Position numbers and translations under genes: made by a program. This document shows positions 25,943-32,959 of a stretch of DNA of 64,000 bases, in pieces. Numbering within the stretch: the stretch's first letter is position 1; each line of letters opens with the position of its first letter. This DNA is from Thermoanaerobaculia bacterium (lineage in GTDB: Bacteria > Acidobacteriota > Thermoanaerobaculia > Gp7-AA8): contig JADGNZ010000002.1 in NCBI GenBank assembly GCA_017883205.1, positions 1 to 64,000 of the forward strand, given 5' to 3'. The notes beneath the pieces were generated by a model. The model saw nothing but the letters and a program-made list of their open reading frames with translations, did no database searches and was not told where the DNA came from.

Positions 25943-26030
25943 CGGGAGTGGGGTGTCGGGGGTGGGGAGTGGAAGAAACGGGGATCGAGCTGCTCAGCGT
26001 CCCCGGAGTCGGGGGTGGGAAGACCCCTGA
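25943..26030. repeat. Heptamer-type element upstream of the cupin gene
   Basis: 7-bp steps CGGGAGT, GGGGTGT, CGGGGGT, GGGGAGT, GG (25943-25972), a ~30-nt centre, then a second G-rich block CCGGAGTCGGGGGTGGGA in the same orientation instead of the usual complement. It is an atypical or rearranged member. Confidence 0.6.
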
Positions 26031-27478: not shown

Positions 27479-28021
27479 ATGACGAAGGCCCAGATCGAAC
27501 TACTCATGACGCGCGACGTCGACGAGGTTTCCGAGGTGGCGGTACACCTCCCAAGCAAGCAACTCCGCGTCACTCTCAAAAACGCGGCCGCCTTGCTCGC
27601 TCGGGAAGAACAGCTGGCCGAGGTCGAGGAACGTCTGTTCATCTTCAAGCTCTTTCGATTTGTCCAGGCTGTGCTCGCTGGCGCACGCGAGCCTGTGACT
27701 GCCGAGGTGGCGCGCGAAGTATTCAGGTCGGCACAAACAGTGATGAAGAGAAATATCGCGCCGGATGTGAACCGCTCCGCTCGAGACATGTTGTCAGTGC
27801 TGCTGACCGAGAAAACCCAGCGGGAACTGCTCCGGAATCAATTCGTGTCAATGGCCGACATCGTCGCCGTGTTTCAACTTTGGACAGACGAACCTCGCAG
27901 GTACGTGGTGAGAAACCCACTTAAGGCTTTGATGTCTGAGCCTACGCGGCACGCGGCAACATCAAAACCGCACTCAGTACGAACGAAGAGCTCATCAAAG
28001 CCGAAGGGATTGCTCCGATGA
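27479..28021 (+). CDS. Hypothetical protein (180 aa)
   Basis: Not recognised. The 180-residue product is predicted mostly helical (LRVTLKNAAALLAREEQLAEVEERLF segment) with a basic, Ser/Lys-rich tail (KTKSSSKPKG-like end). The start ATG follows GGTGATGAG. It lies immediately upstream of the thrS leader: its stop at 28019-28021 is only 17 bp before the extended -10 of the leader promoter. Its coding status rests on frame length, composition and lack of overlap. Confidence 0.5.
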   Translation: MTKAQIELLMTRDVDEVSEVAVHLPSKQLRVTLKNAAALLAREEQLAEVEERLFIFKLFRFVQAVLAGAREPVTAEVAREVFRSAQTVMKRNIAPDVNRSARDMLSVLLTEKTQRELLRNQFVSMADIVAVFQLWTDEPRRYVVRNPLKALMSEPTRHAATSKPHSVRTKSSSKPKGLLR

Positions 28022-28037
28022 ATGTCGCGCCTCTCGC

Positions 28038-28046
28038 TGCTATACT
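28038..28046 (+). promoter_or_regulatory. Extended -10 promoter for the thrS leader
   Basis: TGC followed by TATACT (28038-28046), an extended -10 with five of six consensus bases. No good -35 is seen 16-18 bp upstream, which is common for extended -10 promoters. Transcription would start near 28053, at or next to the ATG of the Thr-rich leader peptide, so that message would be leaderless or nearly so. Confidence 0.6.
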
Positions 28047-28053
28047 CTCTGGC

Positions 28054-28116
28054 ATGACGCAGCGAACGTCGACGACAACTACGCGAACGCCCGCGGGCGT
28101 CCCGCCCTGCCGATGA
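28054..28116 (+). CDS. Threonine-rich leader peptide of thrS
   Basis: A 20-codon reading frame, MTQRTSTTTTRTPAGVPPCR then TGA. Seven of 20 codons are Thr, including four in a row (codons 7-10, ACG ACA ACT ACG) and two closely flanking. This density matches the logic of amino-acid attenuators such as the E. coli thr operon leader. It is followed 33 bp later by a strong terminator, with a competing pairing in between, and then by the threonyl-tRNA synthetase gene. No Shine-Dalgarno is visible; the promoter places the ATG at or near the 5' end. Confidence 0.75.
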   Translation: MTQRTSTTTTRTPAGVPPCR

Positions 28117-28175
28117 TCGTCTGTTTCTAAGCAACACGACAATCCGACAGGGCCGAGCAATCGGCCCTTTTGATT
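28084..28175 (+). promoter_or_regulatory. thrS transcription attenuator (competing RNA structures)
   Basis: Segment 1:2: GCGGG (28093-28097) can pair with CCCGC (28101-28105) over the end of the leader ORF. Segment 2:3 (antiterminator): GCCCTG at 28104-28109 pairs with CAGGGC at 28148-28153, extended past one mismatch by CG/CG. Segment 3:4 (terminator): GGGCCGA at 28150-28156 pairs with TCGGCCC at 28161-28167, then TTTTGATTT. Segments 2:3 and 3:4 share 28150-28153, so they exclude each other. A ribosome stalled on the Thr codons would leave segment 2 free and let thrS be transcribed. Confidence 0.75.
28150..28175 (+). terminator. Rho-independent terminator in the thrS leader
   Basis: A perfect 7-bp GC-rich stem (28150-28156 with 28161-28167), the stable tetraloop GCAA and a following TTTTGATTT. 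It lies 115 bp upstream of thrS and after a complete short ORF, so it is placed to control read-through into thrS. Confidence 0.85.
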
Positions 28176-28177
28176 TA

Positions 28178-28281
28178 TGGGGGAGTCGTAGGACGTCGGG
28201 TGTAGGGAGTCGGAGTAGAAGCTGATCATTCGACGAGCTTCTGATCTCCGACACCCGGCCCCCGACGTCCTACGACCCCCG
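28178..28281. repeat. Heptamer-type palindromic element upstream of thrS
   Basis: The left arm starts GGGGGAGTCGTAGGACGTCGGG and continues GTGTAGGGAGTCGGAG (28180-28215). The right arm CTCCGACACCCGGCCCCCGACGTCCTACGACCCCC (28246-28281) is its complement, with the outer 18 bp (GTCGTAGGACGTCGGG) almost perfect. An inner hairpin AGAAGCT/AGCTTCT is at the centre. It lies between the attenuator and the thrS ribosome binding site (GGAG at 28280-28283). Confidence 0.85.
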
Positions 28282-28290
28282 GAGAAAACC

Positions 28291-30204
28291 ATGCACGTAC
28301 AACTACCCGACGGTTCCCAACGAGAAGTTCAGGACGGCGCGACTGTCGCCGACATCGCGCTGTCGATCGGCAAAGGCCTGGCGAAGGCTGCCCTCGCCGG
28401 CAAGGTCAATGGCAAGGTCGTCGACGTCTACACCCCCGTTCCCGACAACGCCAAGATCGAGATCGTCACGCCGAAGAGCGCGGCTGGACTCGACACCATC
28501 CGCCACTCGACTGCCCATCTCATGGCCATGGCCGTGCAGGAGCTCTTCCCAGGTACCCAGGTCACCATCGGACCGGTCATCGAGAACGGCTTCTTCTACG
28601 ACTTCGGCACCGACCGGCCGTTCACTGACGACGATCTCCGGCGCATCGAGGAGAAGATGTCCGAGATCGTCAAACGCGATCTGCCGGTGCGCCGCGAAGA
28701 GCTGAGCCGCGACGAAGCCATCGCCACGTTCGAGAAGCTCGGCGAGAAGTACAAGGTGGAGATCATCAAAGGCATCCCCGGCGATGAGCCTCTCTCCATC
28801 TACCGCCAGGGCGAGTGGTTCGATCTCTGCCGCGGACCTCACGTCCCCTCCACCGGCCGCCTCGGCGCGTTCAAGCTGACATCGGTCGCAGGTGCGTATT
28901 GGCGCGGCGATGAGCACAACGCCATGCTGCAGCGCATCTACGGCACCGCCTGGGCGGACAAGGACGAACTGTCGGCGTACCTGAAGCGGATCGAAGAGGC
29001 GCACGCGCGCGATCACCGCAAGCTGGGCAAGCAACTCGACCTCTTCACCTTCTCGCACTTCGCGCCGTCGATGCCGATCTTCCTGCCCAAAGGCGCGGCT
29101 ATCTACAACGAGCTGATCGACTTCGTGCGCCGCTTCTACGCGCGCGACGGATACAGCGAAGTCGTCACGCCTCTGATCTGGGATACCGAGATCTTCAAAA
29201 TCTCCGGCCACTACGAGAACTACAAAGAGAACATGTTCTTCTCCGAGGTCGATGAGCGCGAGTACGGCGTGAAGCCGATGAACTGCCCCGGCCACACCCA
29301 GATCTTCGCGATGGAGCGGCGCTCGTACCGCGACCTGCCGATCCGCTACGCCGACTTCGCGCGCCTCCACCGCTACGAGCGCTCGGGCGTGACGCACGGC
29401 CTCGTGCGCGTGCGCTCGTTCGCGCAGGACGACGCCCACCTCTTTGTCACTCCCGAGCAGATCGAGCCGGAGATCGACCGCGAGCTGCGTCTCATCAAAG
29501 AGATCTACGACATCTTCGACTTCAAGGAAGTGCGCATCGCGCTCTCCACGCGTCCCGAGAAACGCCTCGGTACCGACGAGATCTGGGACAACGCCGAGCG
29601 AGGTCTCGAGAACGCCCTGAAGAAGAATGGCGTCGACTACCACATCAATCCGGGCGAGGGAGCCTTCTACGGCCCCAAGCTGGAGTTCCAGGTCACCGAT
29701 GCCATCGGCCGTCCCTGGCAGCTCGGCACCATCCAGCTCGACTACGCGCTGCCCGAGCGCTTCAAGCTCAGCTACATCGGCGCCGACAACGGCGAGCACC
29801 AGCCGGTCATGATCCACCGCGCAATACTCGGCTCGCTGGAGCGGTTCATCGGCATCATCATCGAACACTTTGCCGGTGCCTTCCCCCTTTGGCTCGCACC
29901 GGTTCAGGCATCGGTGCTGCCGTTGTCGGAGAAGTTTCTCGACTACGGGCGTGAGACGGCGGGGAAACTACGGGCGGCCGGTCTGCGCATCGAGACCGAC
30001 GAATCAAACGAGAAGCTCGGCGCGAAGATCCGCGACGCGCAGCTCAGGAAGATCCCGTACATGCTGGTGGTCGGCGAGAAGGAAGTTGCGGCAGGAACGG
30101 TGTCGGTCCGGAAGCGGACCGGGGGCGATCAGGTCTCGCTTTCGATCGATGAATTCGTGGCTCAGGCCAGAGCGGTCATCGCTGCCCGCTCGTTGACTTT
30201 GTAG
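28291..30204 (+). CDS. thrS: Threonyl-tRNA synthetase
   Basis: 637 residues. It charges tRNA-Thr. Domain order: TGS (1-62, MHVQLPDGSQREVQDG, VNGKVVDVYTPV), second additional domain with the editing-site HSTAHLMAMAVQELFP (HxxxH) and IYRQGEWFDLCRGPHVPSTG, class II catalytic core (motif 2 region YRDLPIRYADFARLHRYERSG, zinc Cys in PMNCPGH, motif 3 GSLERFIGIIIEHFAGAFPLWLAPVQ as segments), and the anticodon-binding domain (KLRAAGLRIETDESNEKLGAKIRDAQ segment, PYMLVVGEKE). The start ATG has GGAG at -10. It is regulated in cis by the Thr leader/attenuator upstream. Confidence 0.98.
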   Translation: MHVQLPDGSQREVQDGATVADIALSIGKGLAKAALAGKVNGKVVDVYTPVPDNAKIEIVTPKSAAGLDTIRHSTAHLMAMAVQELFPGTQVTIGPVIENGFFYDFGTDRPFTDDDLRRIEEKMSEIVKRDLPVRREELSRDEAIATFEKLGEKYKVEIIKGIPGDEPLSIYRQGEWFDLCRGPHVPSTGRLGAFKLTSVAGAYWRGDEHNAMLQRIYGTAWADKDELSAYLKRIEEAHARDHRKLGKQLDLFTFSHFAPSMPIFLPKGAAIYNELIDFVRRFYARDGYSEVVTPLIWDTEIFKISGHYENYKENMFFSEVDEREYGVKPMNCPGHTQIFAMERRSYRDLPIRYADFARLHRYERSGVTHGLVRVRSFAQDDAHLFVTPEQIEPEIDRELRLIKEIYDIFDFKEVRIALSTRPEKRLGTDEIWDNAERGLENALKKNGVDYHINPGEGAFYGPKLEFQVTDAIGRPWQLGTIQLDYALPERFKLSYIGADNGEHQPVMIHRAILGSLERFIGIIIEHFAGAFPLWLAPVQASVLPLSEKFLDYGRETAGKLRAAGLRIETDESNEKLGAKIRDAQLRKIPYMLVVGEKEVAAGTVSVRKRTGGDQVSLSIDEFVAQARAVIAARSLTL

Positions 30205-30259: not shown

Positions 30260-30817
30260 ATTTTTCCACCACGACGAGGATCGCGATTCGACCGGAAACC
30301 CACAGAGCCTGAGTCCAGAATCAATGACATGATCCGCGGCATCGCTGAGGTTCGCCTCATCGGAGCCGATGGATCGCAGATCGGTGTCGTTCCCCTGCAG
30401 CAGGCGCAGGAAATGGCCCGAGAGAAGGACCTCGACCTCGTCGAGATCTCGCCGACGGCGAATCCTCCCGTCTGCAAGGTCATGGATTACGGCAAGTACG
30501 TCTTCCAGCAGAAGAAGAAACAGACCGAGGCCAAAAAGAAACAGAAGGTGATCGTCGTCAAGGAGGTGCAGTTCCGCCCCCGCATCGACGAGCACGACTT
30601 CGATTTCAAGAAGAACAACATCATCCGTTTCCTGCAGCACGGCGACAAGGTCAAGGCATCGATCCGGTTCCGAGGACGCGAGATGACGCACATGGAGCTC
30701 GGCCGCGCAGTCCTCGACCGCCTCCTGCTCGAGATCAAAGAGTACGGCGCCGGCGAAAATGCGCATCCCGACATTCAGGGAAACCGCATGACGATGGTGA
30801 TATCACCGGTGAAGTAG
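30260..30817 (+). CDS. infC: Translation initiation factor IF-3 with AUU start
   Basis: 185 residues. IF-3 keeps the 30S subunit free and checks the start codon. The conserved body ([60 protein letters not shown], the C-terminal [24 protein letters not shown] as segments) begins before the first in-frame ATG (30329). Reading back, the frame continues to ATT at 30260, which has a perfect AGGAGG seven bases upstream. An AUU start is the hallmark by which IF-3 represses its own synthesis in enterobacteria, so the same feedback is expected here. It is followed by rpmI and rplT. Confidence 0.93.
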
Positions 30818-30818
30818 G

Positions 30819-31023
30819 GTGTGGGGTGTCGGGGGTGGGGAGTGGGAGCAGAATCAAAGCCGGCTGCTCATCCTCCATCTCTGTCGACGTCACACGCCTC
30901 ACCAGAGCGAAAGTCAAATCTCAACAGAAACTATAAAATCATCAGGAGTGGGCAGGACGGCAACGAGGAGCACGATTGGACGACGGTTCTGCTCCCACAC
31001 CCCACCCCCGACCCCCCACCCCC
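30819..31023. repeat. Long-spaced heptamer-type inverted repeat between infC and rpmI
   Basis: Left arm 30819-30853 (GTGTGGGGTGTCGGGGGTGG then GGAGTGGGAGCAGAA). Right arm 30986-31023 (TTCTGCTCCCACACCCCACC then CCCGACCCCCCACCCCC), its reverse complement with few changes. Unlike other members, about 130 bp of mixed sequence lie between the arms, including an A/T-rich AACTATAAAATCAT segment. The spacer between infC and rpmI otherwise shows no gene. Confidence 0.8.
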
Positions 31024-31061
31024 GGAATTCAACACCACTTCATCAAGTTAGGGACCAAGCT

Positions 31062-31259
31062 ATGCCGAAGATGAAAACGCACCGAGGCGCCGCCAAACGT
31101 TTCACGAAGTCCGGAACGGGCAAGCTTCAACGGAATCACGCCTTCCATTCGCACATCCTGACCAAGAAGTCCGCTGGCCGCAAAGCGGAGCTGGGGAAGG
31201 AAACGAGCGTGTCGAAGGCCAATGAGAAGACCGTGAAGCGCATGATTCCGTATCTTTAG
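31062..31259 (+). CDS. rpmI: 50S ribosomal protein L35
   Basis: 65 residues, family length: [41 protein letters not shown] and the end KRMIPYL. L35 is a small basic large-subunit protein. The in-frame sequence upstream of ATG 31062 is palindromic spacer and not coding. In many bacteria L20 represses rpmI-rplT by binding the leader; the long inverted repeat upstream could be part of such control, but no L20 site was recognised. Confidence 0.96.
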
Positions 31260-31294
31260 GCTGTCATCTGCCGGTCGTTCCGCTTCCCGGTTTG

Positions 31295-31375
31295 CTCCGA
31301 AAGCCGACACCCGACAAGCGACACCCCCAACCCGAGCGAGGCGTGGTAATCACCACTCCTGACCCGCCCGCTCTT
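31295..31375. repeat. Heptamer-type element, single arm (rpmI-rplT)
   Basis: GCTCCGA, AAGCCGAC, ACCCGAC, AAGCGAC, ACCCCCA, ACCCGA in about 7-bp steps (31295-31335) without a matching arm, followed by a small GTGGTAATCACCAC hairpin (31342-31355). It is probably a decayed copy. Confidence 0.55.
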
Positions 31376-31398
31376 AACGAACCAAACGAGGAGAAACA

Positions 31399-31827
31399 AT
31401 GCCGAGAGTCAAACGGGGTACCAAACGTAAAGACCGCCGCTCCAAGATCCTGAAGCTCGCCAAGGGCTACTGGGGAATGAAGTCGCGCGGTCACCGGATC
31501 GCGAAGCAGCAGGTTGAGAAAGCGCTCAACTCCGCCTTCGCAGGCCGCAAAGATCGCAAAGGTGATTTCCGGAAGCTCTGGATCGCCCGCATCAACGCCG
31601 CCGCCCGCCTCAACGGGATTTCCTATTCGAAGCTCATGGCCGGCCTCAAAGCCTCGGGCTCGCTCGTCGATCGGAAGATCCTGGCAGACATCGCCGTCCG
31701 CGATGCCGCTGCCTTCACCGCCATCGTCGAAAGCGCCAAAGGTGCACTGAACAAGCAGCAGCTTCGCACTGCGCTCGACAAAGAGACCGCCGCGAAGCAT
31801 CCGGCCGCGAAGCAGGCCTCGGCGTAA
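31399..31827 (+). CDS. rplT: 50S ribosomal protein L20
   Basis: 142 residues against the usual ~117; the extra residues are an Ala/Lys-rich tail ([15 protein letters not shown]). L20 is essential for early 50S assembly. Seen: [26 protein letters not shown] (segment), [25 protein letters not shown] (segment), [28 protein letters not shown]. It is preceded by an AGGAGAAAC site and ends before a strong terminator. Confidence 0.97.
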
Positions 31828-31851
31828 ACGTCACCACTGACTCACACTGAA

Positions 31852-31880
31852 AACGCGGGCCTCGTGCCCGCGTTTTTGTT
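31852..31880 (+). terminator. Rho-independent terminator between rplT and pheS
   Basis: AACGCGGGC (31852-31860) pairs with GCCCGCGTT (31866-31874), then TTTGTTT. No Phe-rich leader ORF was seen in front of it, so it looks like the end of the infC-rpmI-rplT message rather than a pheS attenuator. Confidence 0.85.
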
Positions 31881-31900
31881 TGTACAATCGCCCGCTCGCC

Positions 31901-32959
31901 ATGCTCGACGACATCACACGCATCAGCTCCGAATTCGACTCCGCCCTCGCATCCGCCAACACGGCCGCCGCGCTCGATGACCTTCGCGTCCACTACTTCG
32001 GCCGCAAAGGCGGCTTGATCCCGGCCCTCTTCTCGCGCCTCAAGGAAGTGCCGAAGGAGCAGAAGAAGGACGCGGGCGATGCACTCAACAAGCTGCGCGA
32101 CCGTCTCGAGTCAGAGCTGAAGGAGAAGTCGGAGCGCGTCACCGCCGAGGAGTCGGCGCGCAAGCAATCGCGCGACATCATCGACGTCACCCTCCCCGCT
32201 CGCATCCCGCACCTCGGCCACCTTCATCCCGTCACGATCATCCGCCGCGAGATGGAGACCATCTTCAGCGAGATGGGCTACTCGCTCGATCCCGGCCCCG
32301 AGGTCGAGAGCGACTGGTACAACTTCGAGGCGCTCAACTTCACACCTGACCATCCCGCGCGCGACACGCAGGACACGTTTTTTCTTGACGCTGATGCACC
32401 GCCGCGCGGCGAAGGCTCGGGCCGCCTTCCCTACCTGCTGCGCACGCACACATCGAACGTGCAGATTCGTTCGATGGAAAATCACACGCCACCGGTGAAG
32501 GTCCTCTCCTGCGGCCGCGTCTACCGCCGCGACGAGATCACCATGCGCCGCTCGCCGATGTTCCACCAGGCCGAGGGGTTTCTCGTCGACAAAGGAATCC
32601 ACATCGGCCACCTCCGCGCCACCCTAGAGCACTTCATCAAACGCCTCTTCGGCGCCGACTCCAAGATGCGCATGCGCCCCAGCTTCTTCCCCTTCACCGA
32701 GCCGTCCGCCGAAGTCGACATGTCGTGCGTCTTCTGTAAAGGCGCCGGCTGCGGGACATGCTCACATACCGGCTGGATGGAGATCCTGGGCTGCGGCATG
32801 ATCCATCCCCAGGTGTTGCGCAACGTCGGCATCGATCCCGAGGAGTGGAGCGGCTTCGCCTTCGGCCTCGGCCTCGACCGCTGCGCCATGATCAAGTTCG
32901 ACATCCCGAACATCCGCACGCTGTTCGAGAACGACCTGCGCGTACTGCAGCAGTTCTGA
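31901..32959 (+). CDS. pheS: Phenylalanyl-tRNA synthetase alpha subunit
   Basis: 352 residues. Alpha subunit of the (alpha-beta)2 enzyme that charges tRNA-Phe. N-terminal coiled-coil (LDDITRISSEFDSALASANT segment), FGRKGGLIPALFSRLKE, class II motifs (GHLHPVTIIRREMETIF segment; LRTHTSNVQIRSM; GRVYRRDEITMRRSPMFHQAEGFLVDKG segment; FGLGLDRCAMIKF). The Cys-rich CVFCKGAGCGTCSHTGW segment occurs in other PheS proteins. ATG 31901 is chosen over an upstream ATG at 31880 inside the terminator. TACAAT at 31883-31888 could be a -10 giving a near-leaderless mRNA. pheT does not follow: the next gene is on the opposite strand. Confidence 0.97.
   Translation: MLDDITRISSEFDSALASANTAAALDDLRVHYFGRKGGLIPALFSRLKEVPKEQKKDAGDALNKLRDRLESELKEKSERVTAEESARKQSRDIIDVTLPARIPHLGHLHPVTIIRREMETIFSEMGYSLDPGPEVESDWYNFEALNFTPDHPARDTQDTFFLDADAPPRGEGSGRLPYLLRTHTSNVQIRSMENHTPPVKVLSCGRVYRRDEITMRRSPMFHQAEGFLVDKGIHIGHLRATLEHFIKRLFGADSKMRMRPSFFPFTEPSAEVDMSCVFCKGAGCGTCSHTGWMEILGCGMIHPQVLRNVGIDPEEWSGFAFGLGLDRCAMIKFDIPNIRTLFENDLRVLQQF

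Follow-up and report, generated by a model that had tools for sequence, protein, structure and literature searches.

A putative ribosome-mediated threonine attenuator upstream of thrS in one order of soil Acidobacteriota

The window analysed here is a stretch of 64,000 nucleotides from Thermoanaerobaculia bacterium (Gp7-AA8), namely positions 1-64,000, forward strand, of contig JADGNZ010000002.1 in assembly GCA_017883205.1. It carries thrS, whose product has TGS, SAD, catalytic and anticodon-binding domains, followed by infC, rpmI, rplT and pheS, which, judging from gene order and strand, are probably cotranscribed with thrS. Upstream of thrS lie an extended -10 promoter element, a 20-codon ORF with seven Thr codons, four of them consecutive, and an intrinsic terminator, all at the places given in an earlier reading of this DNA (the original prediction), which had proposed Thr-leader attenuation of thrS. 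The infC gene apparently starts with ATT (ATT TTT CCA CCA CGA...), with AGGAGGA just upstream, and the same ATT start was seen in genome G015 (locus L011); ATT is a rare start codon and the basis of IF3 autoregulation in E. coli. In several genomes, e.g. in the window and at L019, L101/L123 and L017, long imperfect palindromes of short repeats (GGGAGTCGG..., TTGAATGT...), unrelated to one another in sequence, separate the attenuator from thrS, and the window contains similar palindrome arms near 25950-26020 and 30817-31036.

Features of the thrS locus and positions of the parts of the putative attenuator in the window
Feature	Position	Strand	Basis or remark
Extended -10 promoter element TGCTATACT	28038..28046	+	Sequence read
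Leader peptide ORF MTQRTSTTTTRTPAGVPPCR*, 20 codons, 7 Thr	28054..28116	+	Predicted leaderless
Segment 2, antiterminator 5' strand GCCCTGCCG	28104..28112	+	Within last leader codons
Antiterminator hairpin (segment 2 + segment 3)	28104..28153	+	-18.4 kcal/mol
Segment 3 CGACAGGGC	28145..28153	+	Common to antiterminator and terminator
Intrinsic terminator AGGGCCGA-GCAA-TCGGCCCT + T run	28149..28171	+	Terminator scan, pairing, folding
Long imperfect palindrome between terminator and thrS	28174..28287	.	Outside conserved element; absent here in most relatives
thrS, threonyl-tRNA synthetase, putatively controlled gene	28291..30204	+	TIGR00418, 720 bits
infC (ATT start)	from 30260	+	
rpmI	about 31062-31259	+	
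rplT	31399-31827	+	
pheS	about 31901-32959	+	End of cluster 30260..32959

The leader ORF is positioned close to its promoter. The combination TGCTATACT-N6-12-ATG occurs a single time in the 6.37 Mb genome, and the promoter scan detected no -35 match upstream of TGCTATACT. In the window 7 nt separate the -10 element from the leader ATG, and thus the leader is predicted to begin at the 5' end of the transcript or a few bases from it, with transcription probably starting at about 28051-28054. TATACT or TACAAT precedes the leader ATG by 7-15 nt in 12 of the 17 aligned genomes and, outside this alignment, by 8 nt in G015. For most members a leaderless or nearly leaderless ORF is predicted.

The Thr codons of the window leader occupy positions 2, 5, 7-10 and 12, and seven Thr among the 19 codons after the Met would be expected with P of about 4e-5 at a Thr frequency of 5.5%. 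Among relatives the leader comprises 11-23 codons, following the pattern M-x-RTTTT-x-QTRTT...PCR*, and the Thr codons stay in frame: they make up 125 of 360 leader codons (35%), whereas the other two frames contain 2-3% Thr and ordinary genes here about 4-5%. The Thr positions of the alignment persist although ACG, ACC, ACT and ACA replace one another, more than one Thr codon being used in 6 of the 7 mainly-Thr columns; third positions are the most variable, and length changes comprise whole codons. We infer from this conserved frame with its synonymous Thr codons that the leader is translated. ACG accounts for 74% of the leader Thr codons compared with 47% in the long ORFs of the window, and tRNA-Thr isoacceptors CGT, GGT and TGT are all present. 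The original prediction had named relatives without a Thr-rich frame and covarying stems as the evidence that would speak against it; checked against this condition, the prediction stood: 17 of the 18 leaders carry 5-9 Thr codons, and both stems are kept with a few compensatory changes. The single exception, G008, has a leader reduced to MRPTCSSPPCR* with one Thr and keeps both hairpins, and its loss of Thr codons could reflect decay, a changed signal or a collapse of the ACG repeats in the assembly.

The two mutually exclusive pairings originally read from the window were both recovered. The antiterminator pairing of GCCCTG (28104-28109) with CAGGGC (28148-28153) extends beyond six pairs, comprising GCCCTGTCG/CGACAGGGC and a variable distal stem, and the terminator pairing of GGGCCGA (28150-28156) with TCGGCCC (28161-28167) appears in the terminator scan as an 8-bp hairpin with 6 GC at 28149-28168, followed by TTTGATTTAT. 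In the window itself the antiterminator has a C-A mismatch, the T run is short, and the 125-nt leader folds with z=-2.7. Across the genomes an intrinsic terminator is present between the leader ORF and thrS, together with a mutually exclusive antiterminator that uses the 5' arm of the terminator. The antiterminator strand, usually GCCCTGTCG, is encoded by the last leader codons before the stop and is the best partner of the terminator 5' arm in nearly every genome; in G011 the automatic partner search chose a different site, although this genome also has the strand, with the same fold as elsewhere.

In the alignment, 90% of the terminator cells are paired, with seven double-change cells compared with 2.7 in shuffled alignments (0/500 as high). 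The antiterminator is likewise paired in 90% of cells and has a covariation score of 0.081 compared with 0.045 (reached by 5/500 shuffles); sliding it by one to three columns lowers pairing to 22-49%. The inner antiterminator pairs show few double changes, as their bases are needed for the terminator and for the codons too. In G009, T->C in segments 2 and 4 and A->G in segment 3 occur jointly (GCCCTGC/GCAGGGC/GGCCCTGC), in G005 and G014 GTCG/CGAC is replaced by GTCCT/AGGAC, and G018 has the antiterminator stem GCCC..CTCGTG/CACGAG..GGGC. The distal stem and spacer vary in sequence and pair more than shuffled spacers (combined Z -5.7). An alternative reading is a constitutive partial terminator behind the gene of a small functional protein, with no switching, and chance Thr-rich coding ends followed by a terminator do also occur in these genomes. 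We regard this explanation as very improbable, since all 17 aligned genomes keep a strand that is the complement of the terminator arm, antiterminator and terminator are of about equal stability (-16.0 to -27.7 and -11.7 to -21.5 kcal/mol, respectively, across genomes) and the peptide is conserved mainly at Thr/Arg positions and at the codons of the pairing strand.

The distances within the leader fit ribosome stalling in the classical attenuator arrangement. Upstream of segment 2, the last Thr codon is found at a distance of 8-17 nt and the first usually at 34-53 nt (14 nt for the sole Thr codon of G008), and the leader stop codon follows 9-13 nt after the start of segment 2. Given the known size of the ribosome footprint, a ribosome at the stop codon would therefore cover segment 2, whereas one at most of the Thr codons would not; in four genomes, where the last Thr codon is just 8 nt away, a ribosome stalled there would partly cover the segment. 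Segment 2 can also pair upstream in all genomes, forming a candidate 1:2 hairpin, but this pairing is no greater than when the codons are recoded synonymously (combined Z 1.5) or their order is shuffled (0.3). A separate 1:2 hairpin is thus not supported beyond chance, and the element looks like a three-segment attenuator; the same test gave no support for a role of the ACG bias in such a hairpin.

Our preferred reading, to which we give a probability of roughly nine in ten, is that the element is a ribosome-mediated transcription attenuator which senses charged tRNA-Thr and controls thrS, and probably infC-rpmI-rplT-pheS too. The transcript would begin at or just before the leader ATG, with the leading ribosome trailing RNA polymerase. 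When Thr-tRNA is plentiful, the ribosome would reach the stop codon and cover GCCCTGYCG, the first base of which lies 10 nt before the stop in the window, so that CAGGGCC could pair with GGCCCTG and transcription would end in the T run. If short of Thr-tRNA, the ribosome would instead stall at a Thr codon 8-50 nt upstream of GCCCTGYCG, and this strand, remaining free, would pair with CGACAGGGC, the terminator would not form and thrS would be read. With this geometry, terminator formation should depend on completion of the leader, i.e. on charged tRNA-Thr, and the conserved frame, stems and distances all argue for the attenuation originally proposed. The frame with its Thr codons, the two alternative stems and their conservation, the distances and the place in front of thrS can be read from the sequences, and from these we deduce where transcription starts, its coupling to translation, the stalling and the direction of the control. 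We are less confident about details such as leaderless initiation and the behaviour of the switch when the leader is not translated. Without a protector hairpin, a leaderless leader might leave the switch ON when untranslated, joining Thr-tRNA charging to how readily the cell initiates on leaderless mRNA, IF3 level included. IF3 disfavours leaderless starts, and its gene, infC, lies in the same cluster as thrS. We consider such default-ON behaviour improbable; if true, the supply of the synthetase, IF3 and ribosomal proteins would be tied to one switch.

Two further explanations concern the sensor. ThrRS or another protein could bind a tRNA-Thr-like structure in the leader and so shift the balance between terminator and antiterminator; thrS is the first gene, the enzyme here has the domains listed above, and in E. 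coli ThrRS is known to repress its own mRNA. The chances of this are very small in our judgement, as protein binding leaves the Thr-rich frame and the fixed distance between antiterminator strand and stop codon unexplained; moreover, the leader stop codon is 65-174 nt before thrS in every relative and the antiterminator starts inside the leader ORF, and thus its structure does not centre on the ribosome binding site of thrS. Least probable of all is control of thrS by a T-box riboswitch or some other RNA that binds tRNA or a metabolite, with the Thr-rich ORF being incidental: thrS is under T-box control in most Firmicutes (PMC2494555), but no Rfam family, T-box and Thr leader (Thr_leader) included, matched at its curated threshold with the whole window searched, neither of these two appeared at E up to 5 in 27980-28320, and the transcribed leader before the terminator is just about 95 nt long and mostly ORF. 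Rfam miRNA-like matches at 28179-28282 corresponded to the inserted palindrome.

To follow the putative attenuator among relatives, thrS was searched in 61 genomes and the DNA upstream was read. The same arrangement was found in the family of the window and also in a single genome from another family within the order. With a covariance model built from 17 genomes of the order, leaving out G015, and by upstream reading, the element was located directly before thrS in all 18 assessable genomes of the order; G017, in which thrS starts 4 nt from the contig end, stands outside this count. The held-out G015 was found at E=1.6e-18, with the leader MNRTTTRSTLTTTGSPPCR*. Among 396 genomes sampled across the phylum, nine matched at E<=1e-5, seven of them from this order; the match in G030 was a Thr-rich coding end plus a terminator, and in G372 the DNA read contained neither thrS nor a Thr leader. 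A pattern scan of GTDB genome contigs for GCCCTGYCGNTGAT-N15-45-GACAGGGC yielded 54 loci, seven with thrS downstream, all in Acidobacteriota, while the remaining loci, mostly within genes, looked like chance matches. The weaker matches inspected as possible further copies within genomes turned out to be Thr-rich parts of coding sequence, some of them with a terminator, or terminators alone. The element is thus order-specific within the phylum sample.

The other families examined showed no Thr leader before thrS, which in them mostly follows tRNA-Val(GAC), often then tRNA-Val(CAC); a few genomes have neither tRNA-Val nor 5S rRNA. In many genomes of another group thrS lies directly behind 5S rRNA (loci L148-L157 compared with L158-L173). 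Within the window's own family, G005 and G014 carry two tRNA-Val genes directly before the Thr leader, and the tRNA-Val genes of the window genome are located elsewhere. This layout suggests that the leader probably originated in the interval separating the tRNA genes from thrS, and that the tRNA genes were later lost here. Furthermore, no Thr-rich leader was found at the thrABC operon in the eight relatives checked, so the wiring differs from that of E. coli. As to other amino acid genes, TIGR00118 (large-subunit acetolactate synthase) passes E<=1e-100 in 3/19 genomes (G000-G018) and thrC-like matches occur in 19/19, which suggests that the order is auxotrophic for branched-chain amino acids or has a divergent enzyme; with just 3/19, ilvB is uninformative as a comparison gene.

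Sister families carry a different element, a conserved structured RNA, at this locus. A boxA-like TTCTTTG(N)CA and then GGACGAGGGCGGG-hairpin-CCCGCCGGYAGCC precede tRNA-Val(GAC)-tRNA-Val(CAC)-thrS (loci L020-L030, L126, L127, L129-L131, L134, L136-L138 and L142-L144; L134 and L136 are examples), and this layout often has a terminator before thrS. In this element 99.4% of cells are paired, with 13 double-change cells (0/500 shuffles), and it occurs once per genome at the locus, G024 having one extra weaker match. It is absent from the thrS locus in the window's order, and no Rfam match was found in the three members searched. Possibly it acts by boxA-type antitermination, allowing transcription to read through the terminator before thrS.

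The putative thrS attenuator can be compared with several known systems. The thrL leader of E. coli (Rfam Thr_leader) controls the thrABC biosynthesis genes and uses Thr and Ile codons. It resembles the present element in its Thr-rich leader peptide, its alternative antiterminator and terminator and the amino acid sensed, but it acts on thrABC, whereas the leader described here precedes thrS and has no Rfam match. Attenuation of a synthetase gene by its own amino acid is represented by the pheM-pheST attenuator of gammaproteobacteria. Known or predicted cases include trpS and leuS of Streptomyces (PMC1262725) and the hisS leader of bacilli (PMC2965389). All of these are, as we propose here, ribosome-mediated and concern a synthetase gene and its own amino acid; the amino acid and the phylum differ, and a sequence relation is not expected. 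ThrRS-mRNA control in E. coli and the thrS T-box of Firmicutes (PMC2494555) involve the same gene and respond to Thr supply or ThrRS, but the former senses by protein binding and the latter by direct tRNA binding, whereas here the sensor would be a translating ribosome.

The closest counterpart is thrL of Streptomyces lividans TK24, a leaderless leader ORF before thrS proposed as an attenuator (PMC8079986). Like the present leader, it is a short leaderless ORF with Thr codons before thrS; unlike it, it has two Thr codons only (MKRVRPFLETTPGFVPAR) and lacks a clear, U-rich terminator. It belongs to the Actinomycetota, its peptide has no evident resemblance to ours, and its basis is a transcriptome survey of one strain. 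The original remark that Thr-leader attenuation was not known for thrS in this type of bacterium needs some correction because of this thrL-thrS proposal; beyond S. lividans, no Thr-leader attenuator of thrS was found in the literature searched, which lay largely outside subscription journals. The mechanism is thus already known; as far as this is testable, what appears to be new is the family, its occurrence in this phylum and the presence of a strong Thr sensor on thrS. The switch would be of a familiar type, hardly known before in this phylum and on thrS, with an obvious signal, sensor and target kept across an order. The Thr sensor of enterobacterial thrABC would sit on thrS here, with sister families differing in layout at the locus, and a further route of thrS control might be added to autoregulation by ThrRS, the T-box and the Streptomyces leader, the last of which is weakly documented.
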